Positions 34,206-48,972 of a stretch of DNA of 64,000 nucleotides are shown one piece after another. Where the stretch lies: contig NZ_JAIEZN010000001.1 of NCBI RefSeq assembly GCF_020169335.1, forward strand, positions 451,426 to 515,425. Direction: 5' to 3'. Source of the DNA: Devosia aquimaris. Its GTDB lineage: Bacteria > Pseudomonadota > Alphaproteobacteria > Rhizobiales > Devosiaceae. The notes under the pieces are model-generated. The model was not told the DNA's origin, searched no databases, and saw only the letters and a list, made by a program, of their open reading frames with translations. Both the position numbers and the translations under genes were made by a program. Positions within the stretch are counted from its first letter, which is position 1; every line of letters starts with the position of its first letter.

Positions 34206-35442
34206 GGACCCCGACATCGCCCTGGCGATGGCCCTCGACGCGCGCGACCTCGACAAGCTCTATTTCGACTGGCTGACCTGGGCCGAGCCGGCGCAGTTGC
34301 CGCCCGCAGGCGACTGGACCACCTGGCTGATGATCGGTGGCCGCGGCGCCGGAAAAACACGGGCCGGCGCCGAATGGGTGCGCCGTCTGGCCATGGACGG
34401 CGTCACGCCCATCGCGCTGGTGGGCCAGACCATGACCGAAGCACTGGCCGTTATGGTGTGCGGGCCGAGTGGCCTGCTCAGCGTCCATCCCAAGGCAGAG
34501 ATGCCGGTGCTGCGCGACAAGACGCTGACCTGGCCCAATGGCGTGACGGCCAGCGTCCTTTCGGCCAGCAATCCGGAGGGCTTTCGCGGCCCGCAGTTCG
34601 CGGCCGCGTGGTCTGACGAAATCGGCAAATGGCCTCAGGCGGAAGCGGCCTGGGACATGCTGCAATTCGGCCTGCGCCTGGGCAAGCGGCCGCGCCAGAT
34701 GGCGACGACCACGCCGCGGCCGACCAGGCTGATCCGGCGGCTGCTGGACGATCCGCAAACCGCAGTGACGCGGCAGCGCACTGACCAGAACCGCTTTCTG
34801 GCACGGGGATTTCTGGAGCGCGTCGTCGAGCGCTATCGCGGCACCGTGCTGGGCCGGCAGGAGCTGGACGGCGAATTGATCGATGACGACCCGGGCGCGC
34901 TGTGGCAGCGGGGCATGTTCATGCCCTTTGCCGGCGGCGAGACGGGGCGCGTGATCGTGGCCGTGGACCCACCGGTGACCGGCACGGCGCGGTCCGATGC
35001 CTGTGGCATTGTCGTGGCCGCGCGGGTGGGCGAGGGCGCGGTGGTGCTGGAGGATTGTACGCTCAAGCCTGCGGCGCCGTTGGCCTGGGCGCGGCGCGCC
35101 GTGGCGGCCTTTCACGCCCACAAGGCTGACGCCATCGTCGCCGAGGTCAACCAGGGCGGCGATCTGGTCAAGGCGGTGATCGCGCAGGTGGACCCCAGCG
35201 TGCCGGTGCGCGCCGTGCATGCCAATCGCGGCAAATGGCTGCGCGCCGAACCGGTGGCGGCGCTCTATGCCCGGGGGCTGGTGCGCCATGTCCCTGGCCT
35301 CGTGGCGCTCGAAGACGAAATGTGCAGCTTTGGCGCCGACGGCCGCAGCGACGGCCATTCGCCCGACCGCGTCGATGCGCTGGTGTGGGCGCTGACCGAA
35401 CTGCTGCTCAACCAGAATATGCCCAGGGTGCGCGGGCTTTAG
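34171..35442 (+). CDS. large terminase subunit, DNA-packaging ATPase/nuclease (GTA g2)
   Basis: This motor protein drives DNA into the capsid and cuts it. Walker A GGRGAGKT is at residues 56-63, the Walker B region is FAAAWSDEIGKW, coupling motif TTTPRPT follows, and the C-terminal nuclease has AVDPPVTG, DAIVAEVNQGGD and SPDRVDALVWAL. The frame opens with TTG 34171, overlapping g1 by 35 bp; ATG 34228 (MALDARDL) is an alternative. Neither has a strong ribosome site, so coupling to g1 is likely. 423 aa from the TTG. Confidence 0.93.
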   Translation: MPALNSSSSRIKDPDIALAMALDARDLDKLYFDWLTWAEPAQLPPAGDWTTWLMIGGRGAGKTRAGAEWVRRLAMDGVTPIALVGQTMTEALAVMVCGPSGLLSVHPKAEMPVLRDKTLTWPNGVTASVLSASNPEGFRGPQFAAAWSDEIGKWPQAEAAWDMLQFGLRLGKRPRQMATTTPRPTRLIRRLLDDPQTAVTRQRTDQNRFLARGFLERVVERYRGTVLGRQELDGELIDDDPGALWQRGMFMPFAGGETGRVIVAVDPPVTGTARSDACGIVVAARVGEGAVVLEDCTLKPAAPLAWARRAVAAFHAHKADAIVAEVNQGGDLVKAVIAQVDPSVPVRAVHANRGKWLRAEPVAALYARGLVRHVPGLVALEDEMCSFGADGRSDGHSPDRVDALVWALTELLLNQNMPRVRGL

Positions 35443-35483
35443 GGCAGGGCGCCAGGCTCGACCGAGAACAGGAAAACAACACC

Positions 35484-36635
35484 ATGCCGAACTGGATCAA
35501 CCGCCTGCTTGGCGGGCGGGACAATGCGCCGGCTGAACGCAAGGCTTTTGCCGGGCATACGCTGTTCAGCCTCAGCCAATTGGGTGCGGCCAATTGGAGC
35601 CAGCGTGGCTTTGCCAGCCTCGCCGGCGAGGGTTTTGGGCGCAATCCGGTGGTCTATCGCTGCGTGCGGCTGATCGCCGAAACCGCCAATCGCGTGCCGA
35701 TGGTGGTGGCCGAGAATGGTCGGCGCCTCGACAGCCACCCGCTGGCGACCCTGTTGGCGCGGCCCAATGGGCGGCAATCGGGCGGGGAACTGCTCGAGGC
35801 GGTCTATGCCTATCTGCAGACGGCGGGCAATGCCTATCTGCAGGCCGGGGTGGTCGATGGGACGGTGCGCGGGCTGTTCTGCCTGCGGCCCGACCGCATG
35901 AAAGTGGTGGCCGGCAGCGATGGCTGGCCGATGGCCTATGACTATACCGCCGGCGGGCGGACGCTGCGTCTGCGCCAGGACTTGAGCCCGGTGCCCAGCG
36001 TGCTGCACATGGCGCTGTTTCATCCGCTCGACGACCACTATGGCATGGCCCCGCTGGAGGCGGCGCAGACCAGTCTGGATATCCACAATGCCTCGGCGCA
36101 ATGGAACAAGGCGCTGCTCGACAATGCGGCGCGGCCAAGCGGCGCCCTGGTCTATTCGGCCGGGCAGAACCTGACCGAGGATCAGTTCACCCGGCTCAAG
36201 CAGGAGCTGGAAGCCAGCTTTTCGGGCGCGGCCAATGCCGGGCGGCCCATGGTGCTCGAAGGCGGGCTGGACTGGAAGGCGCTGGCGCTGACGCCGCGCG
36301 ACATGGATTTCATCGAGGCCCGCCATGCCGCCGCGCGCGACATCGCCCTGGCCTTCGGCGTGCCGCCCATGCTGCTGGGCCTGCCGGGCGACAACACCTA
36401 TGCCAATCTGGCCGAGGCCCATCGGGCGCTGTGGCGCCAGACACTGATCCCCCTGGTGATCCGTGTGGCGGAGGAGCTGAGCAATTGGCTGGCCCCGGCC
36501 TTTGAGGGCGCAACGCTGGTGCCCGATTTCGACGGCGTCGAGGCCCTGGCCGAAGATCGCGCGGCGCTGTGGAGCCGGGTGGGCGGGGCGGCGTTTTTGA
36601 GCGACGCGGAGAAGCGGGCGATGTTGGGGATTTGA
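35484..36635 (+). CDS. phage portal protein, HK97 type (GTA g3)
   Basis: The 383-aa protein is the dodecameric gate at the capsid vertex. From ATG 35484 it begins MPNWINRLLGG, then shows NPVVYRCVRLIAETANRVPM, ARPNGRQSGGELLEAVYAYL, and the diagnostic DIALAFGVPPMLLGLPGDNTYANLAEA near the C terminus. A purine-rich ribosome site (AGGAAAA) precedes the ATG, 41 bp after the terminase stop. An in-frame extension into the terminase gene is not needed. Confidence 0.93.
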   Translation: MPNWINRLLGGRDNAPAERKAFAGHTLFSLSQLGAANWSQRGFASLAGEGFGRNPVVYRCVRLIAETANRVPMVVAENGRRLDSHPLATLLARPNGRQSGGELLEAVYAYLQTAGNAYLQAGVVDGTVRGLFCLRPDRMKVVAGSDGWPMAYDYTAGGRTLRLRQDLSPVPSVLHMALFHPLDDHYGMAPLEAAQTSLDIHNASAQWNKALLDNAARPSGALVYSAGQNLTEDQFTRLKQELEASFSGAANAGRPMVLEGGLDWKALALTPRDMDFIEARHAAARDIALAFGVPPMLLGLPGDNTYANLAEAHRALWRQTLIPLVIRVAEELSNWLAPAFEGATLVPDFDGVEALAEDRAALWSRVGGAAFLSDAEKRAMLGI

Positions 36636-36639
36636 GGGA

Positions 36640-36990
36640 ATGGGCAGGTTACTGGAGGCGAGGGTCGGTTTTTCCGATCTGCGGCTGAGTTTCGCGCAGC
36701 GGCGATTTGCCGACGCACTCAATGCCTTGGCTTGCAAATATCGCTCCGATCAGCCGAGAACACCACGAGGAACGCCGGAAGGAGGGCGGTGGACAAGCGC
36801 GGATGAAGGGCAACTCGGTGAACGGATCAGGACTGCCCTGGGTGCCGTACTTGTCGGTCAGCGCGTTGGCGTTGGCGACGCAGGGTTAGTCAGGCATTGT
36901 ATTTACGTGGACGCGCTTGGTCGGCAAATCACCATTGAGGTGAACGCGATGGTCTCCTGCAGGCCAACATGGCCCGCCGCGCCACTCTAG
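36640..36990 (+). CDS. accessory protein inserted in the GTA cluster, unknown function
   Basis: The 116-aa protein is not part of the standard GTA set. Residues about 40-55 hold PRTPRGTPEGGRWTSADEG. This PRxPxGxPxGGxWT motif recurs in short alphaproteobacterial phage-associated proteins, in my memory. The C-terminal part (RHCIYVDALGRQITIEV) looks like a small beta-strand domain. GAGGGA directly abuts the ATG, which is poor spacing; no better start is nearby. The DNA is less GC-rich than the flanking GTA genes. It forms a pair with the next gene, ended by a terminator. Confidence 0.5.
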   Translation: MGRLLEARVGFSDLRLSFAQRRFADALNALACKYRSDQPRTPRGTPEGGRWTSADEGQLGERIRTALGAVLVGQRVGVGDAGLVRHCIYVDALGRQITIEVNAMVSCRPTWPAAPL

Positions 36991-37000
36991 GGGTGTAGAG

Positions 37001-37333
37001 ATGATCCTGATCACAAACATCTCGCTGACCGAACGGGCGGCACCCCACTTCCGTCGGAAGCGTCTGGCTTTCAGGGCTGATCCGGGCGAGGTCTTCGCAC
37101 TGGTTTGGGTCTCAAACCACGCCGATGCCGATGGGACACCCGTGCCGGGATTTGAACCCGGCTACATGTGCGGGCCTGTCTATTCTCAAGGCCTCGCCTC
37201 GCCGTGGGCTTTGGCGCAGCTGCCGGATGGATCGCAGTTTTACTTCATGCCGCGGTTCACCTGGAGCGCTCAAGAACACTATCTCGTCGATAGGCAGGGC
37301 ACGCTGTTTTCGATAGCAGCTGCGACAGGCTGA
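37001..37333 (+). CDS. second accessory protein in the GTA insert, unknown function
   Basis: The 110-aa protein follows the first insert gene by 10 bp. It has no signal or membrane segment and is rich in aromatic and proline residues (GSQFYFMPRFTWSAQEHYLV). No family is recognised. As in many two-gene cargo cassettes the pair could be an effector and its partner, but nothing in the sequence proves this. An intrinsic terminator starts 20 bp after the stop. A tRNA T-arm-like palindrome lies within it on the opposite strand. Confidence 0.5.
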   Translation: MILITNISLTERAAPHFRRKRLAFRADPGEVFALVWVSNHADADGTPVPGFEPGYMCGPVYSQGLASPWALAQLPDGSQFYFMPRFTWSAQEHYLVDRQGTLFSIAAATG

Positions 37334-37353
37334 TAGCACATAGCGCCTGGCTG

Positions 37354-37383
37354 AAAGCCGGCCCTCGGCGGGCTTTTCTTTTT
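37354..37383 (+). terminator. intrinsic terminator closing the GTA insert
   Basis: AAAGCCGGCC, loop CTC, and GGCGGGCTTT form a 10-bp stem with one mismatch, followed by TTCTTTTT. It is a textbook intrinsic terminator placed inside an otherwise co-directional structural cluster, just after the two insert genes. Confidence 0.85.
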
Positions 37384-37395
37384 CCGGAGGGTCTC

Positions 37396-37584
37396 ATGGA
37401 CGACCTCACACGCACCGTCATCGAGCGTGGCGACCTGGCGCATCTCGCGCTCTTCCTGTGGGCCAGCGGTGCCAGCGCGCTTTTGGTGTGGGCGCTGCGG
37501 GAGATGGCCAGGGTGAATCAACACTTCAACGACTTCGTGCGGGAGATCGCCGCTTTGAATCGCCTTTTCCGGAAAGAGGACTAA
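37396..37584 (+). CDS. small membrane protein (GTA g3.5-like)
   Basis: The 62-aa protein has one hydrophobic segment (LALFLWASGASALLVWAL) between charged ends and sits between the portal and the prohead protease, the place of orf g3.5 in RcGTA. ATG 37396 has a CGGAGGG site. In phage terms it could be a minor or holin-like factor; function unknown. Confidence 0.65.
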   Translation: MDDLTRTVIERGDLAHLALFLWASGASALLVWALREMARVNQHFNDFVREIAALNRLFRKED

Positions 37585-37588
37585 GCTC

Positions 37589-37717
37589 ATGGCAAACAAG
37601 AGCAATCGCGAGACGGCGCAGCAGACGTTCCGTCAGTTCGCCTGGAATCTGGCCGGCACGCTGGCCCAGCCCAAGACGAGCACGCCAACGCCCGGCAAGC
37701 CGGGCGGCAAGCGCTGA
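37589..37717 (+). CDS. 42-aa GTA-cluster micro-protein
   Basis: An open frame from ATG 37589 to TGA 37717 encodes MANKSNRETAQQTFRQF and a TSTPTPGKPGGKR tail. It fills the gap between g3.5 and the protease: it starts 4 bp after one stop, and its last base is the first base of the protease ATG. This tight packing argues that it is translated. No family known. Confidence 0.5.
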   Translation: MANKSNRETAQQTFRQFAWNLAGTLAQPKTSTPTPGKPGGKR

Positions 37718-38202
37718 TGGCGCCGACCAAAGGGCGCATTCCGCTCGATGCCGACGGGCGCTTTTCCGGCTATGCCAGCGTGTTCAATCGCCGCGATGAC
37801 GGCGGCGACGTGGTGATGCCGGGGGCCTTTGCCCGCAGCCTTGCCCGTCGGCGCAACCGCATCCGCATGTTGTTCCAGCATGACCCCAAGGAGCCGGTGG
37901 GCATCTGGGACAGCCTGGTCGAAGATGGGCATGGCCTGTTCGTCGCCGGCCATCTGGTGCCCGGCGTCGAACGCGCCGATGCGCTGCGGCGGCTGATCGG
38001 CGAGGGGGCCCTGGACGGCCTGTCCATCGGCTTTCGCACCGTGCGGGCGACCAAGGCCAATGGCCTGCGCCAGCTCTGGCAGATCGACCTCTATGAAATC
38101 TCCATCGTGACTTTTCCCATGCTCGAGGACGCGCGCATCGCGCGCCCCGACCTGGCGACCGGCGCCGCCATTGCGGCCGCCACCCAATCCATCCGCAACT
38201 GA
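37717..38202 (+). CDS. HK97-family prohead maturation protease (GTA g4)
   Basis: The 161-aa serine protease cleaves the scaffold part of the capsid protein during head maturation. Conserved features are the N-terminal GRFSGYASVFNRRDDGGDVVMPGAF region, catalytic His55 (FQHD), Ser103 (DGLSIGFRT) and YEISIVTFPM. It directly precedes the capsid gene, 14 bp apart, as in all HK97-type modules. Confidence 0.93.
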   Translation: MAPTKGRIPLDADGRFSGYASVFNRRDDGGDVVMPGAFARSLARRRNRIRMLFQHDPKEPVGIWDSLVEDGHGLFVAGHLVPGVERADALRRLIGEGALDGLSIGFRTVRATKANGLRQLWQIDLYEISIVTFPMLEDARIARPDLATGAAIAAATQSIRN

Positions 38203-38216
38203 CAGGACAGACCCTG

Positions 38217-39437
38217 ATGACCACCAGCAGTGATGGCCTTGAAACCAAGGCCGGCGCAGGGGGCGATATTGCCGCTCTCTTCGCCGAGTTCTCGACCGCC
38301 TTTGAAGAGTTCAAGGCCACCAATGACCAGCGCCTGGGCGAGCTGGAAAAGCGCGGCAGCGCCGATGGGCTGCTGGAGGGCAAGCTCGACCGGCTCAACG
38401 CCGTGCTCGACAGCAACAAGGCGGCCATGGACCGCGCGCTGATCGACCGCGCCCGCCCGCAGCTCGACGGCAAGGGTGCCCCGACCGACAGCGAGCACAA
38501 GGCGGCCTTTTCGGCCTATGTGAAGCGCGGCGAGGAAAAGGCGCTCTCGATCGGCGTCAATGCCGATGGCGGCTATGTGGTGCCCCCCGAGACCGAGACG
38601 GAAATTACCCGGCTGATGACGGTGCTCTCGCCCATCCGCGCCATTGCCGGCGTACGTCAGGTGTCGGGCGCGGTCTATAAGCGCCCCATTTCGGTGACCG
38701 GGCCGGCGGTGGGCTGGGTGGGCGAGACGGCGGCGCGGCCGATCACGGCGTCCCAGACGCTGGCCGAGCTGAGCTACCCCACCATGGAGCTCTATGCCAT
38801 GCCGGCCGCGACCTCGGCCTTTCTCGATGATGCGGCCGTGGACGTGGGCCAGTGGATCGCCGACGAGGTCAATGCCGCTTTTGCCGCGCAGGAGACCACG
38901 GCCTTTGTCACCGGCAATGGCGTCAACAAGCCCAATGGCTTCCTGGCGGCGACGGCTGTGGCCGAGGCGAGCTGGAGCTGGGGGAACCTCGGCTATATCG
39001 CCACCGGCGCGGCCGGGGCGCTGCCGACCAATAATGCCAGCGACGTGCTGATCGATCTGGTCTATGCGCTCAAGGCCGGCTATCGCCAGAACGCCAGCTG
39101 GGTGATGAACCGCAAGGTGCAGGGCGCCGTGCGCAAACTCAAGGACGCCGACGGCAACTACCTCTGGCAGCCCGCGGCCACGGCCGATGGCAAGGCGCGG
39201 CTGATGGGCTTTGACCTGGTCGAGGCCGAGGACATGCCCAATATCGCCGCCAACTCGCTGTCGATCGCCTTCGGCGACTTCCGCCGCGGCTATCTGATCG
39301 TCGACCGCCAGGGCGTGAGCGTGCTGCGCGACCCCTTCAGCGCCAAGCCCTATGTGCTGTTCTACACCACCAAGCGCGTCGGCGGCGGCATTGCAGACTA
39401 TGACGCGATCAAGCTCCTCAAGTTCGCCGTCTCTTGA
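38217..39437 (+). CDS. major capsid protein, HK97 fold (GTA g5)
   Basis: The 406-aa precursor has a charged, helical N-terminal delta/scaffold region (about residues 1-110), then the HK97 domain beginning SIGVNADGGYVVPPE. Other family parts are LMTVLSPIRAIAGVRQV, YPTMELYAMPAATSAFLDDAAVD, FVTGNGVNKPNGFLA and the C-terminal FGDFRRGYLIVDRQGVSVLRDP. It builds the GTA head after cleavage by g4. Immediately after the stop a large palindrome begins. Confidence 0.94.
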   Translation: MTTSSDGLETKAGAGGDIAALFAEFSTAFEEFKATNDQRLGELEKRGSADGLLEGKLDRLNAVLDSNKAAMDRALIDRARPQLDGKGAPTDSEHKAAFSAYVKRGEEKALSIGVNADGGYVVPPETETEITRLMTVLSPIRAIAGVRQVSGAVYKRPISVTGPAVGWVGETAARPITASQTLAELSYPTMELYAMPAATSAFLDDAAVDVGQWIADEVNAAFAAQETTAFVTGNGVNKPNGFLAATAVAEASWSWGNLGYIATGAAGALPTNNASDVLIDLVYALKAGYRQNASWVMNRKVQGAVRKLKDADGNYLWQPAATADGKARLMGFDLVEAEDMPNIAANSLSIAFGDFRRGYLIVDRQGVSVLRDPFSAKPYVLFYTTKRVGGGIADYDAIKLLKFAVS

Positions 39438-39555
39438 GGTCCGTGAGCCTGGCCATCTGAAGCGGAGGCCCTGTGCTCCGGTGCTCACGTACTCACAGTA
39501 CGCTCCGCTCCGGTGCGCGGGCCTCCACTCCATCTGACTCAGGCTGACGGACCTC
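39436..39555 (+). repeat. nested palindrome between GTA capsid and adaptor genes
   Basis: Outer arms GAGGTCCGTGAGCCTG (39436-39451) and CAGGCTGACGGACCTC (39540-39555) pair with one mismatch. Middle arms GGAGGCCC (39464-39471) and GGGCCTCC (39519-39526) pair, and the centre CGTAC-TCACA-GTACG (39488-39502) forms a small hairpin. The whole 120-bp unit resembles a REP/BIME-type intergenic element or a structured mRNA segment lowering expression after capsid. It has no T-run. Confidence 0.75.
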
Positions 39556-39600
39556 ACATCGCGGCGCCGTGCCCCCAACAGAGAGCCGAAAGGCAGAACC

Positions 39601-40167
39601 ATGATTTCCTATCTTCTGGCGGGACCCGCGCAGGAGCCGGTTTCGCTTGCCGAGGCCAGGGCCTTTCTCAAGGTGGATGACAGTGCCGAGGACGGGCTGA
39701 TCACCACGCTCATCGGCGCGGCGCGATTGCATATCGAGGGCGTGACCGGGCGGGCGCTGCTGGCGCAGGACTGGCGGGTCGTGCTCGACGCCTGGCCGGA
39801 CAACCGCCATGTGCGGCTGCCGGTCGGGCCGCTGCTCAATGTCATCGCCATCACCGCCTATGACGATGCCGGGGCGGGCCACGCCGTGCCGCTGGCGCAA
39901 TTTCTGCGCGAGCCCGAGGCGCTGGTGCTGCCGGCGGCAGTCGCCGGCATGCCGGCGCTGCGCGAGCGGCAGGGGCTAGAGATCGACTATCGGGCCGGCT
40001 TCGGGACGGACGCCGATGACGTGCCGCAGGATATCCGCCAGGCCATGCTGGTCCTGCTCGGCTATTGGTTCGAGCACCGTGACGCGGTGATCGTGGCGGG
40101 GTCGGGCGCCGTGATGCCATCGGGGTTTGACCGGCTGGTGGCCGGCTACAAGCGGGTGCGGCTATGA
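39601..40167 (+). CDS. head-tail connector protein (GTA g6, gp6/gp8-like)
   Basis: The 188-aa protein begins with the connector signature LAGPAQEPVSLAEARAFLKV and has IGAARLHIEGVTGRALLAQDW and VPQDIRQAMLVLLGYWFEHRD, typical of HK97 gp6-like adaptors that join portal and tail. It overlaps the next gene by ATGA. A purine-rich AAAGGCAGAACC precedes the ATG. Confidence 0.85.
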   Translation: MISYLLAGPAQEPVSLAEARAFLKVDDSAEDGLITTLIGAARLHIEGVTGRALLAQDWRVVLDAWPDNRHVRLPVGPLLNVIAITAYDDAGAGHAVPLAQFLREPEALVLPAAVAGMPALRERQGLEIDYRAGFGTDADDVPQDIRQAMLVLLGYWFEHRDAVIVAGSGAVMPSGFDRLVAGYKRVRL

Positions 40168-40505
40168 GCGAGGAACGCCCGCCCATCGGCAGTATGACCG
40201 ACCGCGTGGCGCTCAAGCGCCGCGAAATGGTGAGCCAGCCCGAAGGCGGTCATGTGGCGCTGTTCGTGCCGCTGGCCAGCGCTTGGGCGCGGGTGCGCTC
40301 GCTGCGCGGGCGGCAGGGCACCAGCGCCGACGGCCGCGCGGTGGAAATCTCGCACGCGGTGGTGCTGCGCTTTCGCAGCGACATCGCCCCTGGCGACCGC
40401 ATCGTCTATCGCGACCGCGCTCTCGATGTGGTGAGCGCGGCAGACCTCGACGGGCGGCGGGCTTTCCTGAGCTGCGCCTGCAGCGAAACCAGCTTCACGG
40501 GGTAG
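40164..40505 (+). CDS. phage head closure/head-tail adaptor (GTA g7)
   Basis: The 113-aa protein has the head-closure pattern: MTDRVALKRREM near the start, WARVRSLRGRQ in the middle, and FRSDIAPGDRIVYRDRALDVVS near residues 70-90. Equivalent proteins (SPP1 gp16-like) seal the connector after DNA packaging. Its ATG overlaps the g6 stop. Confidence 0.85.
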   Translation: MSEERPPIGSMTDRVALKRREMVSQPEGGHVALFVPLASAWARVRSLRGRQGTSADGRAVEISHAVVLRFRSDIAPGDRIVYRDRALDVVSAADLDGRRAFLSCACSETSFTG

Positions 40506-40508
40506 GCC

Positions 40509-40907
40509 ATGCATCCCATTGCGCTTGTGCAGACGGCGCTGGTGGCAGCGCTCAAGGCTGATCCGGCGCTGCTGGCCATCACCGGACCCGACGGCGTGTT
40601 CGACGCGGCGCCGCGCGACCGGCCGCCGCCCTATGTGGTGATCGCCCGCCATGACCTCTTGCCGCACGATGGCGACGCCACGCCTGGCTTTGAGCATCGG
40701 CTGCTGCTGGCCTGCTGGGGCGACCAGCCCAGCCGCAAGCGGGCGCTGGACATGGCCGAGCGCGTGGTGGCGCTGGCCCTGACGCTGAACGCGCCGGGGC
40801 TGGTGCTGAGCCACATCGACCATGTGCGCACCGAAAGCGGGATCGACGCCGACACCGGGCTGGCGAGGGCCGCCGTGAGCCTGCGGATGTTCAGCGAGGC
40901 AGGCTAG
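40509..40907 (+). CDS. DUF3168 tail-completion protein (GTA g8)
   Basis: The 132-aa protein shows the DUF3168 pattern: a helical start PIALVQTALVAALKADPALLA, GVFDAAPRDRPPPYVVI, and a C-terminal AAVSLRMFSEAG. It caps the tail end at the head-tail joint. It lies 3 bp after g7. Confidence 0.85.
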   Translation: MHPIALVQTALVAALKADPALLAITGPDGVFDAAPRDRPPPYVVIARHDLLPHDGDATPGFEHRLLLACWGDQPSRKRALDMAERVVALALTLNAPGLVLSHIDHVRTESGIDADTGLARAAVSLRMFSEAG

Positions 40908-40944
40908 CGGCCGGCCATCAAACTCAATCACAGGGGACACAACC

Positions 40945-41358
40945 ATGGCCGCCCAAAGCGGACGCAACATGCTGCTCAAGCTCGACCAGAGCGGGGCGGG
41001 CAGCTTTCTCACCGTGGCCGGCCTGCGCACGCGGAGCCTCGCCTTCAACGCCGCCAGCGTCGACACCACCGACCAGGAAAGCGCCGGGCGCTGGCGCGAA
41101 TTGCTGGCCGGCGGCGGCGTCAAGCGCGCCTCGGTCTCGGGCAGCGGCGTGTTCAAGGACGCGGCGTCGGATGCGCAGATCCGCGCGCTGTTCTTTGCCG
41201 GCACCATCCGCAACTGGCAGCTGATCCTGCCCGATTTCGGCGTGGTCGAAGGGCCATTCCAGATCGTGGCGCTGGAATTTGCCGCCGACCATGCCGGGGA
41301 AGTGACCTTCGAGCTGGCGCTGGAAAGCGCCGGCGAACTCGGCTTTGCCGCCATCTGA
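40945..41358 (+). CDS. major tail protein, TP901-1 family (GTA g9)
   Basis: The 137-aa tail-tube protein opens MAAQSGRNMLLKLDQSG and carries LRTRSLAFNAASVDTTDQES, a standard TP901-1 major tail block, followed by a beta-rich body (SGSGVFKDAASDAQIRALFF). It forms the tube through which DNA leaves the head. Confidence 0.9.
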   Translation: MAAQSGRNMLLKLDQSGAGSFLTVAGLRTRSLAFNAASVDTTDQESAGRWRELLAGGGVKRASVSGSGVFKDAASDAQIRALFFAGTIRNWQLILPDFGVVEGPFQIVALEFAADHAGEVTFELALESAGELGFAAI

Positions 41359-41375
41359 CAGAAAGGGACTGATCC

Positions 41376-41690
41376 ATGGCCATTGCACACCGGGGCGAGA
41401 TCGACGCCACCATTGGCGGCGAGGTGATGACGCTGTGCCTGACGCTGGGCGCGCTGGCGGAGCTCGAAAGCCGGCTGGAGGCCGGGGATCTGGTGGGGCT
41501 GGCCGAACGCTTCAGCGCCGGACGCATCTCGGCCCGAGACCTCACGGCAATCCTGGGCGCCGGACTGCGCGGCGGTGGCCACGCCATCACCGATGACGAT
41601 CTGGCGCGGCTGAGCATCGAGGGCGGGCTCAAGGGTGCCGCCGAGATCGCCGTGCGCCTGCTCAAGGCGAGCTTTGGAGAGGCGGCATGA
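41376..41690 (+). CDS. GTA tail protein g10 (tail assembly chaperone-like)
   Basis: The 104-aa protein matches the GTA gp10 layout: HRGEIDATIGGEVMTLCLTLGALAELESRLEAGDLVGLAERF, then GAGLRGGGHAITDDDLARL. Placement between the major tail and tape measure genes is the usual position of tail assembly chaperones. It overlaps the next gene by 4 bp. Confidence 0.85.
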   Translation: MAIAHRGEIDATIGGEVMTLCLTLGALAELESRLEAGDLVGLAERFSAGRISARDLTAILGAGLRGGGHAITDDDLARLSIEGGLKGAAEIAVRLLKASFGEAA

Positions 41691-41878
41691 CGCCCTTTCC
41701 CTGGACTGACGCCATGCGCTTTGGCCTGGGCGTGCTGCGCCTGCCGCCCGAGCAGTTCTGGCGCATGACGCCGCGCGAGCTGGCGGCGGCCTGGGGCGCG
41801 CTGATGGGTGACCGGGCCTGGCCGCTGGAGCGGCGCGATCTCGATGGACTGATGGAGCGCTTTCCCGATGGCCGGTGA
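41687..41878 (+). CDS. rcc01693-type tail assembly protein (GTA g10.1)
   Basis: The 63-aa protein has the short family signature FPWTDAMRFGLGVLRLPPEQFWRMTPREL, with an AAWGAL turn. Such small proteins, with g10, may form the split chaperone pair of the tape measure protein. It overlaps both neighbours. Confidence 0.85.
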   Translation: MTPFPWTDAMRFGLGVLRLPPEQFWRMTPRELAAAWGALMGDRAWPLERRDLDGLMERFPDGR

Positions 41879-42416
41879 ACTGTTTCCCGACGGGTTCCGC
41901 GACGAGCTGGGCAGCGTGGCCAGCGAGCTCGATCGCATCGGCGACCTCGCCAATGGCGTGGCGCGCAGCATTTCGACGGCGTTTCGCGGCGCGCTCACCG
42001 AGGGCAAGTCATTCAAGTCGCTGCTGGGCGACATTGCCCGCAGCTTTGCCGATCTTGCGCTCAAGGCGGCGGTCAAGCCGCTGGGCGATCTGCTCGGCGG
42101 GCTGGTGGGGCAACTCTTCACCGCCACCAATCCGGCGCTGGGCAGCGTGACGCCCTTTGCCAAGGGCGGTGTGATCGCCACGCCGCGCTATTTTCCGCAT
42201 GGCGGGGGCCTCGGCCTGATGGGCGAGGCGGGGCCCGAGGCGGTGTTGCCATTGCAACGCGGCGCGGATGGGCGGCTGGGCGTGGGCGGCGGGAACGGTG
42301 CGGTCAACGTCACGTTCAATGTCACTGCCAGCGACGCGCGCAGCTTTGCTGCCTCCGAAGCCGACCTCAGCGCCATGCTGTTGCGGGCCGTTCGGCGCGG
42401 CACGCGCGGGAGTTGA
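41868..42416 (+). CDS. short tail tape measure protein (GTA g11)
   Basis: The 182-aa protein has a helical N-terminal half (GSVASELDRIGDLANGVARSISTAFRGAL) and a GTA-type C terminus with TPFAKGGVIATPRYF and GLMGEAGPEAVLPL. Siphophage tape measures are often over 600 aa; GTA versions are short, in line with their short tails. It overlaps g10.1 by 11 bp. A REP-like hairpin follows. Confidence 0.88.
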   Translation: MAGELFPDGFRDELGSVASELDRIGDLANGVARSISTAFRGALTEGKSFKSLLGDIARSFADLALKAAVKPLGDLLGGLVGQLFTATNPALGSVTPFAKGGVIATPRYFPHGGGLGLMGEAGPEAVLPLQRGADGRLGVGGGNGAVNVTFNVTASDARSFAASEADLSAMLLRAVRRGTRGS

Positions 42417-42451
42417 GGCAATGGGGTGGGCGACGTCGGGGATACATCCAA

Positions 42452-42493
42452 CGACCCCCACCCCCGACCCCTCCCCTCAAGGGGGAGGGGAGG
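42452..42493 (+). repeat. REP-like hairpin between g11 and g12
   Basis: A C-rich block leads into CCCCTCCCC (42468-42476), loop TCAAG, and GGGGAGGGG (42482-42490). Repeats of this C-rich/G-rich form are common in intergenic DNA of Rhizobiales, by my recollection. It fills most of the 116-bp gap in an otherwise overlapping gene array. Confidence 0.65.
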
Positions 42494-42532
42494 CAGACTG
42501 CATGACCGGTGCTCTATCCAAAGGACTCCAAC

Positions 42533-43153
42533 ATGGCCTTTCATGCCATTCGCTTTCCGCTCGATATTGCGCTGGGGGCGCGGGGTGGGCCAGAGCGGCG
42601 CACCGATGTGGTGACGCTGGCGGGCGGCGGCGAGCAGCGCAATGGGCGCTGGCAGCACAGCCGCCGCCGCTACAACGCCGGCTATGGCGTCAAGTCGCGG
42701 GCCGACATGGCGGTCGTGCTGGCGTTTTTCGAGGAGCGACGCGGGCGGCTGCATGGTTTCTTGTGGCGCGACGGGCTCGACCATTCGAGCGGCGGGCCGG
42801 TGCCGCTGCCGACCGACCAGCTGATCGGCACCGGCGACGGCAGCCGCACCAGTTTCCAGCTCATCAAGCGCTATGGCGCCAGCTTCGACCCCTATCTGCG
42901 CCCGATCAGCAAGCCGGTGGCGGGTTCGGTGCGGGTGGCCGTCGCGGGCGTGGAGCGGACGAGCGGCTGGAGTGTCAGCAGTACGACGGGTGTCATCAGC
43001 TTTGCCGTTCCGCCCGCCAGCGGCGCGGCGGTCACGGCGGGCTTTCTGTTCGACGTGCCGGTGCGCTTTGACACCGACCGGCTCGATGTGGAGCTAACCA
43101 GCTTTGACGGCGCCGAGGCGCCCAGCATTCCCCTGGTGGAGATCCTGCCATGA
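42533..43153 (+). CDS. DUF2460 distal tail protein (GTA g12)
   Basis: The 206-aa protein begins MAFHAIRFPLDIALGARGGP and shows the DUF2460 marks RRRYNAGYGVKSRADMAVVLAFFEERRGRLHGFLWRD and SSTTGVISFAVPPASG. In RcGTA structures g12 forms the distal tail hub. Start at ATG 42533, not the in-frame ATG at 42509. It overlaps g13 by ATGA. Confidence 0.9.
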   Translation: MAFHAIRFPLDIALGARGGPERRTDVVTLAGGGEQRNGRWQHSRRRYNAGYGVKSRADMAVVLAFFEERRGRLHGFLWRDGLDHSSGGPVPLPTDQLIGTGDGSRTSFQLIKRYGASFDPYLRPISKPVAGSVRVAVAGVERTSGWSVSSTTGVISFAVPPASGAAVTAGFLFDVPVRFDTDRLDVELTSFDGAEAPSIPLVEILP

Positions 43154-44040
43154 GACAGCTCGACCCCGGCCTTGCCGGCCATCTGGCGCAGGGCGAAACG
43201 ACGCTGTGCCATTGCTGGCGGCTGACGCGGCGCGACGGACTGGTGCTGGGCTTCACAGACCATGACGGGACGCTGAGCTTTGATGGCACCAGTTTCTCGC
43301 CTGCCAATGGGCTCGATGGTGGCACGGTGCCGGCGCGGCTGGGCAGCCAGGTCGATACCGCCGAGGTTCTGGGCGTGCTCGACGCCGAGGCGATCAGCGA
43401 AGACGATATTCTGCTCGGGCGCTATGACGGCGCGGCAGTCGAGACCTGGCGGGTGAACTGGGCCAATGTGAGTCAGCGCTTGCTGCTGCGGCGCGACAGC
43501 ATTGGCGAGATCGCCCGCGAAGATGGCGTGTTCCGCGCCGAACTGCGCTCGGCCCAGCAGGGGCTCAACGCCACCCATGGCCGCATCTACCAGAGCCTGT
43601 GTGATGCGCGGCTGGGCGACAGCCGATGCGGGGTGAGCCTCGCCAGCAGCACATGGCGCGGCACGGCAACCGTCGTGGCGGTAGACGGCCCCTATCGGGT
43701 TCAAGTGAGCGGGCTGGGTGGCTACGAAGCCGGATGGTTTGCCTTCGGTAGCGCGGCCTGGGCGAGTGGGCAAAGAGCCGGCCTGCGGGACGGCGTGCTG
43801 AGCCATGGACGCAGCGGCGGCAATGACATGCTGGGCTTTGCCCTGCGCGTCGGCGACTGGGTGGCGCTGGGCGATACGCTTGAGGTTACAGCCGGCTGCG
43901 ACCGACGGTTCGAGACCTGCAAGGCCAAGTTCGGCAATGCCGTCAACTTCCGCGGCTTTCCGCATATTCCGGGCAGTGACTATGTGCTGCGCCATCCACG
44001 CAATGGCGACGCGCTGGACGGCAAGGCGGTGGTGCCATGA
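43150..44040 (+). CDS. DUF2163 baseplate hub protein (GTA g13)
   Basis: The 296-aa protein starts MRQLDPGLAGHLAQGETTLCHCWRLTRRDG and has VLGFTDHDGTLSF, RWRVNWAN-like and a C-terminal cysteine block CDRRFETCKAKFGNAVNFRGFPHIPG. The cysteine block is the family hallmark and may bind an Fe-S cluster or zinc in hub proteins. It overlaps g14 by ATGA. Confidence 0.92.
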   Translation: MRQLDPGLAGHLAQGETTLCHCWRLTRRDGLVLGFTDHDGTLSFDGTSFSPANGLDGGTVPARLGSQVDTAEVLGVLDAEAISEDDILLGRYDGAAVETWRVNWANVSQRLLLRRDSIGEIAREDGVFRAELRSAQQGLNATHGRIYQSLCDARLGDSRCGVSLASSTWRGTATVVAVDGPYRVQVSGLGGYEAGWFAFGSAAWASGQRAGLRDGVLSHGRSGGNDMLGFALRVGDWVALGDTLEVTAGCDRRFETCKAKFGNAVNFRGFPHIPGSDYVLRHPRNGDALDGKAVVP

Positions 44041-44474
44041 TGGCCGAGGGGGTGGTCGCGGCGGCGCGGACCTTTCTCGGCACGCCTTATCGGCATCAGG
44101 CGGCGACGGCCGGGGCCGGCTGCGATTGCCTGGGCCTGCTGCGCGGCGTGTGGCGCGCGCTTTATGGCGATGAACCCGGGCCGGTGCCGCCCTATCGCGC
44201 GGATCGGCGTGACCCCGACAATGCCGGCGCTCTGGCGGACGCCGCTGCGCGTTTTCTGCAGCCCACCGAGGCGCCGCTGGCGGCGGGGCAGGTGGTGCTG
44301 TTTCGCATCGGCTGCGATGCCGGGCCGCGCCATTGCGCGGTTCTGGTCAGCCCGACGCGCTTCATCCATGCCCAGGAGCATCTGGGCGTGGTCGAGGCCA
44401 ATCTGACCGAGGGCTGGGCAAAGCGCATCTGGGGACGGTTCAGCTTTCCCGACCGGGCCGGACGGCCCGACTGA
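44037..44474 (+). CDS. NlpC/P60 tail peptidase (GTA g14)
   Basis: The 145-aa cysteine peptidase opens the cell wall during DNA delivery. Its ARTFLGTPYRHQA start, catalytic Cys31 (GCDCLGLLRG), and RHCAVLVSPTRFIHA with the family histidine place it in phage NlpC. It overlaps the DUF2163 gene and precedes the host-specificity gene by 12 bp. Confidence 0.92.
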   Translation: MMAEGVVAAARTFLGTPYRHQAATAGAGCDCLGLLRGVWRALYGDEPGPVPPYRADRRDPDNAGALADAAARFLQPTEAPLAAGQVVLFRIGCDAGPRHCAVLVSPTRFIHAQEHLGVVEANLTEGWAKRIWGRFSFPDRAGRPD

Positions 44475-44486
44475 CAAGGATATTCC

Positions 44487-47400
44487 ATGGCAACTCTTGC
44501 TCTGTCGCTGGCCGGCCAGGCCGTGGGAGGCCTCGTGGGCGGACCCATCGGCGCCACCATCGGGCGGGCGCTCGGCGCCCTGGCCGGCAGCGCCATCGAC
44601 AATGCGATTTTTGGCGAGACACCGCAGAATGCCCCGGCCGATATCCGCCTGCAGGGCTCAAGCGAGGGCGGCGCGGTGCCCCGGCTCTATGGCTGGAGCC
44701 GGCTGGCGGGCAATATCATCTGGGCGCGCGAGCTCGAACGGCTCGGCGGCGACAGCGCCGGTGCCAAGGGCATGGGGCAGAGCGAGGCCGACGAGGTCGG
44801 CGCCAGCTTTGCCGTGGCCTTTTGCGAGGGCGAGGTGCATCGCCTCGGGCGCATCTGGGCCGATGGGCAGTTGCTCGACACCAGCGGGCTGACGCTGCGC
44901 TTTTATCGCGGCACGCAGACACAATTGCCCGACGGGCTGATCGAGGCGACGCAGGGCGTGGCGCCGGCCTATCGCGGGCTGTGTTACCTGGTGGTCGAGA
45001 ACCTGCCATTGAGCCGTTTCGGCAACCGCATTCCGCAGCTCAGCGTTGAGCTCTGTCGCGTGGTGGGGGAACTCGAGCCGCAGATCCGCGCGGTGACGCT
45101 GATCCCCGGCGCCACCGAATTCGGCTATGATCCCACGCCGCGCCTGCGGCTGCTGGGGCCGGGCGCCAGCACGGGCGAGAACATCCATGTGCCGGGCGGC
45201 GGCAGCGACTGGAGCTGGTCCATCGACGAGCTGACGGCGCTCTGCCCCAATCTGCGCCATGTGGCGCTGGTGGTGGCCTGGTTTGGCGACGATCTGCGCT
45301 GCGGCCAGTGCCAGATCACGCCACGCGTCGAAGGCGCGGTGCGGCCGATGCACGACACCGATTGGTCGGTGATGGGGCTAGGGCGGGGCGATGTGCCGGT
45401 GGTGACCAGCCATGCCGGCGGCGCGGCCTATGGCGGCACGCCATCGGACCATGCGGTGCGCGCGGCCATCGCCGATCTCAAGGCGCGCGGCCTCAGCGTA
45501 ACGCTCTATCCCCTGATCATGATGGATATAGCGGCGGGAAACAGCCTGCCCAATCCCTATGGCGGAACGGGCCAGCCGGCCTATCCCTGGCGCGGCCGCA
45601 TCACTTGCGACCTGGCGCCCGGCCTGCCGGGTTCGCCGCATCTGAGCGGGGCAGCCAGCAGCCAGGTGGCCAGCTTTGCCGCGCGTTATCGCAGCATGGT
45701 GCTGCACTATGCCGGGCTGGCGTCCAGCGTCGGGGGCGTCGACGCCTTCATCATTGGCAGCGAAATGGTGGCGCTGACGGGCGTGCGAGGGCCGGGCACC
45801 AGCTTTCCCTTTGTCGACGCATTGGTGGGACTGGCGAGCGAGGTGCGGAGCATCGTGGGCGCGGCGACCCGGCTGACCTATGCGGCGGACTGGAGCGAAT
45901 ATTCCGGCGTGCAGGCGGGCGGCGAGAAGTTCTTCCATCTTGATCCCCTCTGGGCCAGCCCGGCGATCGATGCCGTGGGCATCGATAATTACATGCCGCT
46001 GGCGGACTGGCGCGACGGCACCGGGCATCTGGATGCCGAGAACGCGGCCAGTCCCTATGGGCCGGACTATCTGCGCGCCAATATCGCGGGTGGCGAGGGC
46101 TTTGACTGGTACTACGCCAGCGACGCCGACCGGCAGGCGCAAAACCGCACGGCGATCACCGATGGCGCCTATGGCGAGCCCTGGGTGTGGCGCTACAAGG
46201 ACATTCGCAACTGGTGGAGCCAGCCGCATCATGACCGGCCCGGTGGCGTGCGCAATGCATCTCCGACAGCCTGGGTACCGGGCAGCAAGCCGATCTGGTT
46301 CACGGAGCTGGGCTGCGGCGCCGTCGACAAGGGCGCCAACCAGCCCAATATCTTTGGTGACCCCAAGAGCGCCGAAAGCGGGCGGCCGTATTTTTCCTCG
46401 GGCCTGCCGGACCCGCTGATGCAGCGACAAGTGCTGCGGGCGCACCAGGCCTATTGGCGCGATGGTGCGCACAATCCGCCAGGCATGGTGGATGTCGATC
46501 GGCTCTATCTGTGGAGCTGGGACGCGCGGCCCTATCCCGCCTTTCCGGCCCGGCTGGACGTCTGGTCAGACGGGATCAACCACCGCGCCGGCCATTGGTT
46601 GACCGGGCGGCTGGGCGGGCTGGCGAGCGATGAGCTGGCACTGGCCATCGCCGCCGAACATGGCGTGACTCTCAAGGCCGAGCCGGCTTTGCCCTTTGTG
46701 TCGGGCTATGCGCTGAACGCGGTGGGCACGGCACGGGCGGCGCTGGAACCGTTGCTGGCGGCGACCGGGCAGAGCATGGCCAACAGCAGCGACGGGCTGT
46801 GGCTGGCGCGACCGCGCCCGACCACTGCGCTGACCGTAGCGCCCGAGCATTTGGCAGAGGACGAGGGGCCGGTGCTGGCGCGCAAGCGCAGCGACCCCGC
46901 CGAAGTGCCGGGGCGGCTTGCGCTGAGCTTTATCGACCGCGAGCGTGACTATCTCGGCGGTGCGGTGACGGCGCTGGCGCTGGAGGAGGGGCCGCTGGCG
47001 ACGGAGACCCTGCCGCTGGTGCTGGACGGCACGGCAGCGCGGCTGGCGGCGGAACGCCTGCTCGACGCCCAGGGCGGGCGGATCGAGACACTTGACGTTG
47101 CCTTGCCACCAAACGCCCTGAAACTGGAGCCGGGTGACTTGATCGGTATCGCCGGGCTGACCGGCGGCCCGTTCGAAATCACCGACATCCGCGACGGCGC
47201 CACGCGCCGCATCAGCGCGCGCAGCCTGCCGCGCGATGGTGCCGTGGCCAGTGCGCCGGACCGGCCTGTCGCCGGTGGCGCGGGGATCAAGCTGCCCAGC
47301 GTGCCCATCGTACTGGCGGCGCATTTGCCGCCGCTGCCCGATGACCCGGTGCGGTCGCGGCTGGTGGTCGGTGGCCATGCCAATCCCTGGCCTGGCGCGC

Positions 47401-48215
47401 TGCAACTGGCCGACAGTGCGACCGGCGCCAATCTGCTGACGCTGGAGCGCGGCGCTGTGCTGGGGGAGACGGCGACGGCCCTGGGGGCTGGACCACATGC
47501 CCTATGGGATCGTGGACCTGGCTTTGACGTCCTCCTCTATGCCGGCCATCTCGCATCGGTGACGCCAGAGGCGACACTGGCCGGGAGCAATCGGCTGGCG
47601 GTCGAGACCGATGCCGGGGGCTGGGAGGTGATCGGCTTTGCCCAAGCCACGCTGGTGGCGCCGGGGCGCTATCGGCTGACGCAATTGCTGCGCGGGCTGG
47701 ACGGCAGTGGACCGGCGATGGGGACAATTGCCGCCGGCCGTCGCGTCATGCTGCTCGATAGTCGTGCGGCCAGCCTGCCGCTGGCGGCGGACTGGCTGGG
47801 CGAGACGCGGAGCCTGCGCGTCTATGCCGGCAGCGACGATATGGCCGGCGCGGCGCTGGAGATCGCTTTGGACGCCAACCCGGCGCTACCGCTGCCACCG
47901 GTGCACCTGCGGGCGCGACGGCTGGCAGGGGGCGACATCGGACTAAGCTGGCAACGCTGCAGCCGCGCCGATGGCGCCGGCTGGGGGCTGCTCGATGTGC
48001 CGCTGGAGCACAGTCCGGAGCGCTATACCCTGAGTATTGAAAGTGCCGGGCTGACCCTGCGGACGCTGGAATTGACGGCGTCGTCGGCACTCTACCCGCT
48101 GGCCGACCAGACCAGCGATTTCGGCGGTCCGGCGACCGCCTTTGACTTCGCCGTGGCCCAGATCAGCGCCGTGCTGGGGGCGGGCCATGTTGCAACGGGA
48201 GCCTTCCATGGCTGA
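44487..48215 (+). CDS. GTA host-specificity / TIM-barrel tail protein (g15)
   Basis: The 1242-aa protein is the largest in the cluster. An N-terminal glycine-zipper region (AVGGLVGGPIGATIGRALG) is followed by the GTA_TIM barrel (about 300-610, with AADWSEYSG, DAVGIDNYMPLADWRDG and KPIWFTELGCGAVDKG resembling glycoside hydrolase active-site strands), then a Phage-tail_3 region and a C-terminal beta-rich part. It sits at the tail tip and likely binds or degrades surface polysaccharide of the recipient. It overlaps the endolysin by 8 bp. Confidence 0.93.
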   Translation: MATLALSLAGQAVGGLVGGPIGATIGRALGALAGSAIDNAIFGETPQNAPADIRLQGSSEGGAVPRLYGWSRLAGNIIWARELERLGGDSAGAKGMGQSEADEVGASFAVAFCEGEVHRLGRIWADGQLLDTSGLTLRFYRGTQTQLPDGLIEATQGVAPAYRGLCYLVVENLPLSRFGNRIPQLSVELCRVVGELEPQIRAVTLIPGATEFGYDPTPRLRLLGPGASTGENIHVPGGGSDWSWSIDELTALCPNLRHVALVVAWFGDDLRCGQCQITPRVEGAVRPMHDTDWSVMGLGRGDVPVVTSHAGGAAYGGTPSDHAVRAAIADLKARGLSVTLYPLIMMDIAAGNSLPNPYGGTGQPAYPWRGRITCDLAPGLPGSPHLSGAASSQVASFAARYRSMVLHYAGLASSVGGVDAFIIGSEMVALTGVRGPGTSFPFVDALVGLASEVRSIVGAATRLTYAADWSEYSGVQAGGEKFFHLDPLWASPAIDAVGIDNYMPLADWRDGTGHLDAENAASPYGPDYLRANIAGGEGFDWYYASDADRQAQNRTAITDGAYGEPWVWRYKDIRNWWSQPHHDRPGGVRNASPTAWVPGSKPIWFTELGCGAVDKGANQPNIFGDPKSAESGRPYFSSGLPDPLMQRQVLRAHQAYWRDGAHNPPGMVDVDRLYLWSWDARPYPAFPARLDVWSDGINHRAGHWLTGRLGGLASDELALAIAAEHGVTLKAEPALPFVSGYALNAVGTARAALEPLLAATGQSMANSSDGLWLARPRPTTALTVAPEHLAEDEGPVLARKRSDPAEVPGRLALSFIDRERDYLGGAVTALALEEGPLATETLPLVLDGTAARLAAERLLDAQGGRIETLDVALPPNALKLEPGDLIGIAGLTGGPFEITDIRDGATRRISARSLPRDGAVASAPDRPVAGGAGIKLPSVPIVLAAHLPPLPDDPVRSRLVVGGHANPWPGALQLADSATGANLLTLERGAVLGETATALGAGPHALWDRGPGFDVLLYAGHLASVTPEATLAGSNRLAVETDAGGWEVIGFAQATLVAPGRYRLTQLLRGLDGSGPAMGTIAAGRRVMLLDSRAASLPLAADWLGETRSLRVYAGSDDMAGAALEIALDANPALPLPPVHLRARRLAGGDIGLSWQRCSRADGAGWGLLDVPLEHSPERYTLSIESAGLTLRTLELTASSALYPLADQTSDFGGPATAFDFAVAQISAVLGAGHVATGAFHG

Positions 48216-48972
48216 TGCGCGCTTTGAGGCCTGCCTTGCGATCGTGCTGGACCATGAAGGCGGCTATGCCGATCATCCCGCCGATCCCGGTGGGGCGACC
48301 AATCTGGGCATCACCCGCCGGACGCTGGCCGATTGGCGGCAGGTGTCGCCCTGGACGGACTTGCCCAAGAGCGAGGTGCGGGCTTTGCAGCGGCCAGAGG
48401 CGGCGCACATCTATCGCGCGCTCTATTGGCAGCGTTGTCGCGGCGATGAGATGCCAGCGGGCCTCGATCTCGCGCTGTTCGACTTCGCCGTCAACTCGGG
48501 GCCCGACCGCGCAATCCGTCAGTTGCAGCGTCTGCTCGGCGTGGCAGCGGATGGACAGATCGGCCCGATCACGCTTGCGGCTATCGCCAAGCGCAACACC
48601 GGGCCGGCCCTGGCAGGCCTGATTGCCGGCCTCTGCGATGCAAGGCTGCGCTTTCTCAAACAGCTCAGGGGCTTTGCCACCTTCGGCAAGGGCTGGACGC
48701 GGCGGGTCGCCGCCATTCGGTCGGCGGCGCTGGCCGCGTCCGGCAGTTCCCCGCTGTCACCATCACCACGCAATGGGAGGTCCAGCTTGGACATTCTGAA
48801 CGGCTACAAGACCTATATCACCGCCATCCTGATGCTGCTGGCCGGGCTCGCCCAGGCCTTTGGCATCGATCTGCCCGTGCTCGAGGGCGGCTCGGCGGGA
48901 CAGATGATCATGGAGGCGCTGGCCCTGATCTTCCTGCGTCAGGGCATCAGGGCAGACAGCGGGCGGGCGTGA
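48208..48972 (+). CDS. GH108 endolysin with C-terminal holin-like segment
   Basis: The 254-aa protein starts at ATG 48208. The N-terminal GH108 muramidase has the catalytic Glu18 in LDHEGGYADHPADPGGATNLGIT; a PG_binding_3 domain follows (about 75-170, LFDFAVNSGPDRAIRQLQ). After a Ser/Pro/Gly linker (about 180-192) a membrane-type segment DILNGYKTYITAILMLLAGLAQAFGID appears, resembling small holins. An in-frame TTG at 48787 with a GGGAGG site 6 bp upstream could also give a separate 61-aa product. It would release GTA particles or act at the cell wall. Confidence 0.85.
   Translation: MADARFEACLAIVLDHEGGYADHPADPGGATNLGITRRTLADWRQVSPWTDLPKSEVRALQRPEAAHIYRALYWQRCRGDEMPAGLDLALFDFAVNSGPDRAIRQLQRLLGVAADGQIGPITLAAIAKRNTGPALAGLIAGLCDARLRFLKQLRGFATFGKGWTRRVAAIRSAALAASGSSPLSPSPRNGRSSLDILNGYKTYITAILMLLAGLAQAFGIDLPVLEGGSAGQMIMEALALIFLRQGIRADSGRA

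Follow-up and report, generated by a model that had tools for sequence, protein, structure and literature searches.

Gene layout and domains

In the 64,000-nucleotide stretch of Devosia aquimaris DNA analyzed here (contig NZ_JAIEZN010000001.1, positions 451,426 to 515,425 of the forward strand; hereafter the window), a single open reading frame (ORF) on the forward strand, 48208..48972, encodes a GH108 muramidase that continues into a holin-like tail. A second in-frame start, preceded by its own ribosome site, stands at the junction of the two parts. This lysis gene is the last member of a gene transfer agent (GTA) cluster resembling that of Rhodobacter capsulatus (RcGTA), in a Devosia-like genome. 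Its first bases overlap by 8 nucleotides the end of the gene for the GTA tail protein known as "megatron". Both components of the lysis machinery probably come from this one gene, since the conservation described below makes separate synthesis of the membrane protein, from the internal start, very probable. An initial annotation of this DNA had located the gene (48208-48972), a GGGAGG motif, a TTG (48787) 6 nucleotides behind it and a 61-residue frame from that TTG, all of which were borne out to the base.

The long ORF consists of 254 codons followed by TGA, and no stop interrupts it between GH108 and tail. It starts at the ATG at 48208, behind an SD-like (Shine-Dalgarno-like) GGGAG (48197..48201, +) that sits inside the 3' end of the preceding gene. 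Its product comprises a GH108 catalytic domain (48238..48501, residues 11-98), a PG_binding_3 domain (48508..48705, residues 101-166), a linker and the holin-like tail. The catalytic domain matched Pfam Glyco_hydro_108 (PF05838) with an E-value of 7.9e-29 and 100.5 bits (cut-off 21.2), and the second domain matched PF09374 with 34.7 bits (cut-off 24.6). Glu17, Gly18 and Gly19, which form an EGG motif, were invariant together with further enzyme residues in 50/50 aligned sequences, and we take the Glu of this motif to be catalytic in GH108. By its domains and this conserved Glu the long ORF falls among GH108 endolysins, with a predicted muramidase activity. The nearest solved structure to the GH108 part (48208-48759) was SagA of Brucella abortus (7dnp; Foldseek E-value of 1.6e-12, template modelling score by target of 0.88, profile E-value of 1.3e-64). 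However, the crystallised chain of SagA has 182 residues and the match stops at profile position 184, before the tail. SagA is described as a secreted muramidase with a role in intracellular trafficking (PMC9610446).

Between enzyme and tail lies a variable linker (48739..48786, +) that holds the internal ribosome site and was modelled with low confidence (predicted local distance difference test, pLDDT, below 50 at residues 186-193). The internal SD GGGAGG (48775..48780, +; GGAGGT at 48776-48781) is separated by 6 nucleotides from the TTG (48787-48789), from which the short ORF (48787..48972, +) would yield a 61-residue, holin-like product ending at the same stop. The energy of the SD duplex was -11.4 kcal/mol at the internal site versus -6.6 at the long start. 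The long form exceeds the short product by 193 residues. With a second in-frame start, a ribosome site of its own and a common stop, the gene has the predicted layout of a gene for two polypeptides.

Conservation of the internal start

The examination of 223 loci provided 101 distinct full-length fused ORFs (one high-scoring segment pair from query residue ≤10 to ≥228), L125 being dropped for an internal stop. Six of the 101 have other tails (L065, L094, L095, L098, L110, L166) and were left out, leaving 95 homologues with the window-type tail. As a separate observation on L125 (genome G095), the GTA GH108 gene is broken there and the tail is also disturbed near its start.

The junction codon was a start codon in 95/95 distinct homologues (ATG 87, GTG 5, TTG 3). 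It lay at an identical offset from the GYKTY motif in 92 of them, and in the other three it had moved by 1-2 codons and was still a start codon. An SD core, defined as GGAG, AGGA or GAGG within positions -16 to -5, preceded the junction start in 89/95 cases versus 1154/17856 other in-frame codons (6.5%), and the mean duplex energy with the 16S tail was -6.7 at the junction versus -3.6 at other in-frame ATG, GTG or TTG codons. Single-chain homologues without a conserved ribosome site, which the initial annotation had set against its own proposal, were looked for among the 95: the SD core was absent from six and the start codon from none. The same pattern appeared when each identity group, based on the enzyme part, was reduced to one representative, with a start codon in 32 and an SD core in 28 of the 32 groups at 70% identity, and in 9 and 8, respectively, of the 9 groups at 60%.

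The codons that overlie the SD were also biased. An Arg codon at this place was AGA or AGG in 30/30 cases versus 179/1828 elsewhere in those genes, and a Ser codon was AGC or AGT in 24/24 cases versus 374/1005. The fourth codon before the start encodes Trp (28), Arg (27) or Gly (26) in most of the 95 homologues, and base -11 is G in 81/95; ahead of the internal start, the predicted peptide varies but the purine core persists. Besides, the mRNA is predicted to be open around the internal start, with a mean minimum free energy (MFE) of -4.6 kcal/mol compared with -11.9 at 1140 positions drawn at random from these genes.

Such a pattern might be a chance feature of a variable linker, start codons being common at other columns of the alignment and residue 209 being an invariant ATG in all 95 homologues. 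This residue served as a control column, where the SD core was found in 0/95 cases with a mean duplex energy of -1.1, against 86/92 and -6.7 for the junction column in the same test; at five other control columns the SD core occurred in at most 2. Chance is therefore an exceedingly improbable explanation. A chance start codon was ruled out by the 95/95 junction start codons together with the invariant-Met control.

Several observations nonetheless speak against a functional internal start. The start of the window itself is a TTG, and its surroundings are more structured (-8.5) than the family mean. The start codons at residue 33 reach an average duplex energy of -6.3, near the -6.7 of the junction, so that the SD duplex energy by itself is not decisive; only 2/61 of these codons have an SD core and their surroundings are folded (MFE of -11.4). 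The 95 homologues share ancestry and are not independent, and in Microvirga L095 and L110, where GH108 is fused to a different tail, an ATG is present with no SD core. As regards the TTG, the gene of L002, 85% identical to that of the window, has an ATG behind the same GGAGGT, so that the TTG with its strong SD (-11.4) can be seen as the form that the family pattern takes in this genome. Taken together, these comparisons make it very likely that the internal start is used.

Maintenance of the in-frame join

Among 121 genomes of the family, 113 had a match and 91, including the genome of the window, had the whole fused protein. A match to the tail only, with no GH108 upstream, was found in 13, and the remaining 9 of the 113 comprised G003 and matches that were broken, cut by a contig end or reduced to GH108 only. 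Since the 95 homologues had been picked as fused, a set assembled without regard to fusion was used, consisting of IMG/VR contigs found via the tail alone. There were 68 such contigs, of which the best 51 (L264-L314) were examined for frame and the other 17 (L315-L331) for neighbours. Megatron was present in 51/51 and GH108 upstream of the tail in 40/51, and in all of the 40 GH108-bearing contigs (40/40) GH108 joins the tail in frame without a stop; the 51 contigs may share species with the 95 homologues and are not fully independent of them. A start codon was again found in 51/51 contigs, at the matched first residue in 47 and two to four codons upstream in 4, and the SD core held a fixed position in 45/51. 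Contigs L264-L314 are filed as viral in IMG/VR yet carry megatron in every case, meaning that chromosomal GTA clusters are counted as viruses in this database.

Counted from the G.GW motif up to the internal start, the linkers of the 95 homologues are 29-40 codons long, which implies frequent insertions and deletions, yet the frame is kept. As far as sequences can tell, the comparison establishes that the internal initiation site is conserved and that the in-frame join has been maintained. With the enzyme residues also invariant, both products appear to be under selection. The initial annotation suggested that a single frame might yield both a fused lysin-holin and a separate 61-residue product, and this is strongly supported by the conserved start, the SD, the codon choice, the open mRNA and the join.

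The join itself could nevertheless be a by-product of tight translational coupling, with the short holin as the only functional membrane product and a fused tail that has no role. Indeed, GH108 and another holin-like gene are separate in Microvirga L078, with an ATGA overlap, and in L085, with a short gap. Moreover, the tail exists without GH108 in the 13 family genomes mentioned above, where it is preceded by a short leader or, in L117, by a PG-binding domain; 12 of the 13 (the case of L119 is ambiguous) keep the SD, with energies of -5.5 to -10.8, and the start codon, 4-7 codons before the tail motif. However, a neutral join should show common frameshifts and stops, whereas the frame was kept in 40/40 contigs across linkers of such variable length, and we regard this explanation as unlikely.

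The kept frame could equally reflect a single-product endolysin with a C-terminal transmembrane domain (TMD), of the M4Lys, LysAP or Enc34 type, in which the 254-residue protein acts alone and the junction Met is a relic of gene fusion. C-terminal membrane tails are indeed known in endolysins, one of which, M4Lys, can lyse E. coli with no holin present (PMC7143992, PMC8943055, PMC8879335). But a relic would be expected to decay, whereas every variant of the junction codon is itself a start codon, the SD persists in spite of codon preference, and across the family the site lacks structure. Besides, in the M4Lys and Enc34 genes none of the in-frame start codons after codon 20 is preceded by an SD core. 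A lone 254-residue product has a low probability, below that of the coupling explanation. Two related candidates were set aside in the same way: a fusion relic was considered improbable in view of the preserved start codon, SD and codon choice, and identity with the known C-terminal-tail endolysins M4Lys and Enc34 was rejected after both were scanned and no internal SD-start was found in either.

The tail as a candidate holin

The Kyte-Doolittle profile of the short product (19 residues) showed one clear segment, with a peak of 1.93 at residues 14-32, and a weaker second one. Together with the Pfam match and the stop-free frame, this profile agrees with the initial description of a GH108 muramidase in frame with a membrane segment. 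The model of the short product contained two helices (5-24 and 37-60), and no wall-binding family was matched. The short product shares with holins its small size, at least one predicted membrane segment and a lysis-cassette setting, here by fusion to GH108.

Relatives of the tail also occur as separate genes, a check proposed in the initial annotation that proved positive in free tail genes (L157-L160), in phage contigs and, with another tail, in Microvirga L078 and L085. L157, L158, L159 and L160 have an SD core before their own ATG, and the upstream neighbour encodes a PG_binding_1/CHAP enzyme in L157 and an NlpC/P60-like protein, just under the Pfam cut-off, in L159. The 17 distant IMG/VR contigs (L315-L331), of which 13 are distinct as judged from the small protein, mostly have the tail as a separate small frame. 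A peptidoglycan-hydrolase-like gene lies upstream of it in 8 of the 13, encoding an M15 peptidase (L315, L331 and, under the cut-off, L320), an amidase (L321, L327), an M23 protein (L325), a PHROGs endolysin (L316) or a product of the PHROG named tail lysozyme (L329). Of the other five, L318 and L326 had a neighbour that was tested and gave no hydrolase match, and three had no tested neighbour. In one of these contigs (L315:2426-2692), the small tail protein has an upstream in-frame ATG with a basic extension, and a strong SD (aaggaggt) precedes the second ATG, possibly forming a lambda-like dual start.

Family searches and hydrophobicity give reason for caution about a holin. The tail of the window matched no Pfam or PHROGs family at an E-value of 0.001. 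Only 3/42 tail relatives touched phrog_9284 (holin), the best with an E-value of 0.012, and weak matches of unrelated families were equally good. No Pfam or NCBIfam holin match was found among the tail relatives, and tblastn of the short product against 50,697 phage records gave no match at E-values up to 1. Because the second helix has low hydrophobicity and contains a conserved Arg, a true hairpin with two transmembrane segments is uncertain.

According to another explanation, the short product is an antiholin or a pinholin-like regulator rather than a hole-former, and the fused form lyses alone after membrane depolarisation. The two short helices with their modest hydrophobicity would suit such a regulator, as would the tail of M4Lys, which alone is merely bacteriostatic (PMC7143992). 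On the other hand, the free tail relatives adjoin separate hydrolase genes, and no other holin candidate is known in the genome, where the sole search, with PF11351 (GTA_holin_3TM, the RcGTA-type holin), gave no match while the control genomes were silent as well, so that this search shows nothing. A regulator seems improbable, on a par with the coupling explanation, and the context of the short product makes it quite likely that it is a holin.

Proposed mechanism

For the production of both proteins, their topology, holin activity, co-assembly and timing, we infer the following scheme. Ribosomes initiating at the ATG at 48208 would make the 254-residue muramidase with its C-terminal membrane tail, and those initiating at the TTG at 48787 would make the tail alone, as a 61-residue holin. 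The acidic loop and the basic C-terminal end suggest a hairpin with both termini in the cytoplasm (N-in/C-in). The muramidase of the long form would consequently be cytoplasmic, held at the inner membrane by holin-assembling helices. The short form would trigger and open the membrane, whereupon co-assembled fused molecules would bring muramidase to the wall or release it there. The proportion of long to short form would govern the timing, much as the long form of a dual-start holin does; the long form here would be a tethered muramidase that joins holin assemblies and either delays or delivers lysis. We consider it likely that the ORF gives rise to a muramidase tethered to the membrane and to a separate holin, with co-assembly and timing as proposed. 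The narrower claim that the fused form functions in timing or delivery is put forward tentatively, at slightly less than even chances.

Setting in the gene transfer agent cluster

The RcGTA-like structural cluster extends over 34171..48215 on the forward strand. According to family matches of the Pfam/PHROGs type, its members encode terminase, portal, S78 protease, capsid, connector, head completion, tail tube, GTA-gp10, DUF2460, baseplate hub and NlpC/P60 proteins and megatron. The latter (44487..48215, +) has 1242 residues with GTA_TIM, Phage-tail_3 and Rcc01698_C domains. The terminal position of the lysis gene in this cluster had gone unmentioned in the initial annotation. Downstream of it come a small ORF (49096-49386), a response regulator (49425-50084) and an ORF for a putative sensor kinase (50138-51511). 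Relatives of the small ORF and of the response regulator follow the lysis gene in many homologous loci. The response regulator itself had a match at an E-value ≤1e-70 in 112/121 genomes of the order and was near the GTA end at many of the loci examined. When 40 loci upstream of the response regulator were surveyed across the order, megatron was found in 18 and GH108 in only 5, the lysis-gene arrangement therefore not being universal in the order. The host genome (3.8 Mb) contains a single match to the lysis gene, and the nearest named match is in Devosia sp. FKR38 (85% identical).

Variants and other enzyme-tail pairs

Other tails are joined to lysis enzymes in or close to GTA loci of other families. 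A tail with the motif WWxxSLTIWG, for which patterns with and without the required Met returned the same 5 loci, was joined to GH108 in 5/5 (L164, L166, L243, L246, L257). In each of them only one start codon, an ATG, lies within 25 codons upstream; it has an SD core, and the energies range from -5.7 to -8.9. Four of these loci have megatron and a response regulator, and L164 has the response regulator only. A third tail, with the motif RTIWAN, was found in 7 distinct cases, each with an ATG ten codons before the motif, and 4/7 have an SD core. Its fusion partner is GH108 in L065 and L142 and a GH19/PG_binding_1 enzyme in L247, and all three fusions have an SD core. The Microvirga fusions L095 and L110, which have no SD core, also carry this tail, as do the separate genes of L078 and L085. 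In L111-L116, which belong to one genus, a leader of ~33 residues takes the place of GH108 in frame with the window-type tail, starting in L112 at the end of megatron, and recalls the long-form extension of dual-start holins. A broader scenario, somewhat less likely than not, would be that GTAs of Hyphomicrobiales repeatedly merged endolysins (GH108, GH19) and mutually unrelated holin-like tails into one ORF that contains an internal start for the holin, the long form acting as a muramidase-bearing, co-assembling antiholin.

Comparison with known systems

The gene combines three known ideas, namely internal starts in endolysin genes, dual-start holins and endolysins with a C-terminal TMD. In-frame internal starts are described in the endolysin genes of Lys170, CTP1L, CD27L, Ms6 LysA and phi2638A (PMC9430671). 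As in genes of the Lys170 type, one gene has two in-frame starts, each with a ribosome site, and a common stop. In the Lys170 type, which occurs in phages infecting Gram-positive bacteria and mycobacteria, the short product consists of a wall-binding domain, either by itself or together with one catalytic domain, whereas that of the Devosia gene is a hydrophobic putative membrane protein, of another lysis class, in a Gram-negative host. The gene also resembles the dual-start holins (lambda S107/S105, phage 21) in that long and short forms of one membrane protein would come from two starts. However, the extension of the lambda holin amounts to two residues, the second start being Met3 (PMC6116005), compared with a 193-residue enzyme here. 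With M4Lys (phage BSPM4), Enc34 ORF39 and LysAP (phage AP1), the gene shares an N-terminal catalytic domain, a C-terminal membrane tail and a Gram-negative host. The tail of Enc34 has two helices, as in the model of the present tail, and the catalytic domain of Enc34 is PHA02564 instead of GH108 (PMC8943055). Enc34 and AP1 have a separate holin gene, and BSPM4 has a separate "putative lysis protein B". A possible holin-capsid fusion has been reported in a text that also mentions dual starts and internal lysin starts (PMC9671378). In the open-access literature, among the matches listed and by their titles and the beginnings of their abstracts, no endolysin-holin ORF with an internal holin start was described. 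If the long form does act as an antiholin, a single ORF would be enzyme, hole-former and timer, a lysis architecture not met in the literature searched.

The R. capsulatus RcGTA has the same type of structural cluster, including the megatron and GTA-gp10 families. Its holin-endolysin pair is encoded away from the GTA cluster (PMC6209664), in contrast to the single ORF at the cluster end here. Lysis by the Caulobacter GTA is ascribed to LypABC, and canonical holin-endolysin genes were not found there (PMC13236601). The present family suggests a third solution to the lysis of GTA producers, with a lysis gene that closes the GTA cluster and is fused in 91/121 genomes. Besides, the survey of internal starts cited above left out the endolysins of Gram-negative hosts because internal starts seemed unlikely there (PMC9430671). 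The Devosia gene would extend in-frame internal starts to an endolysin of this very group.

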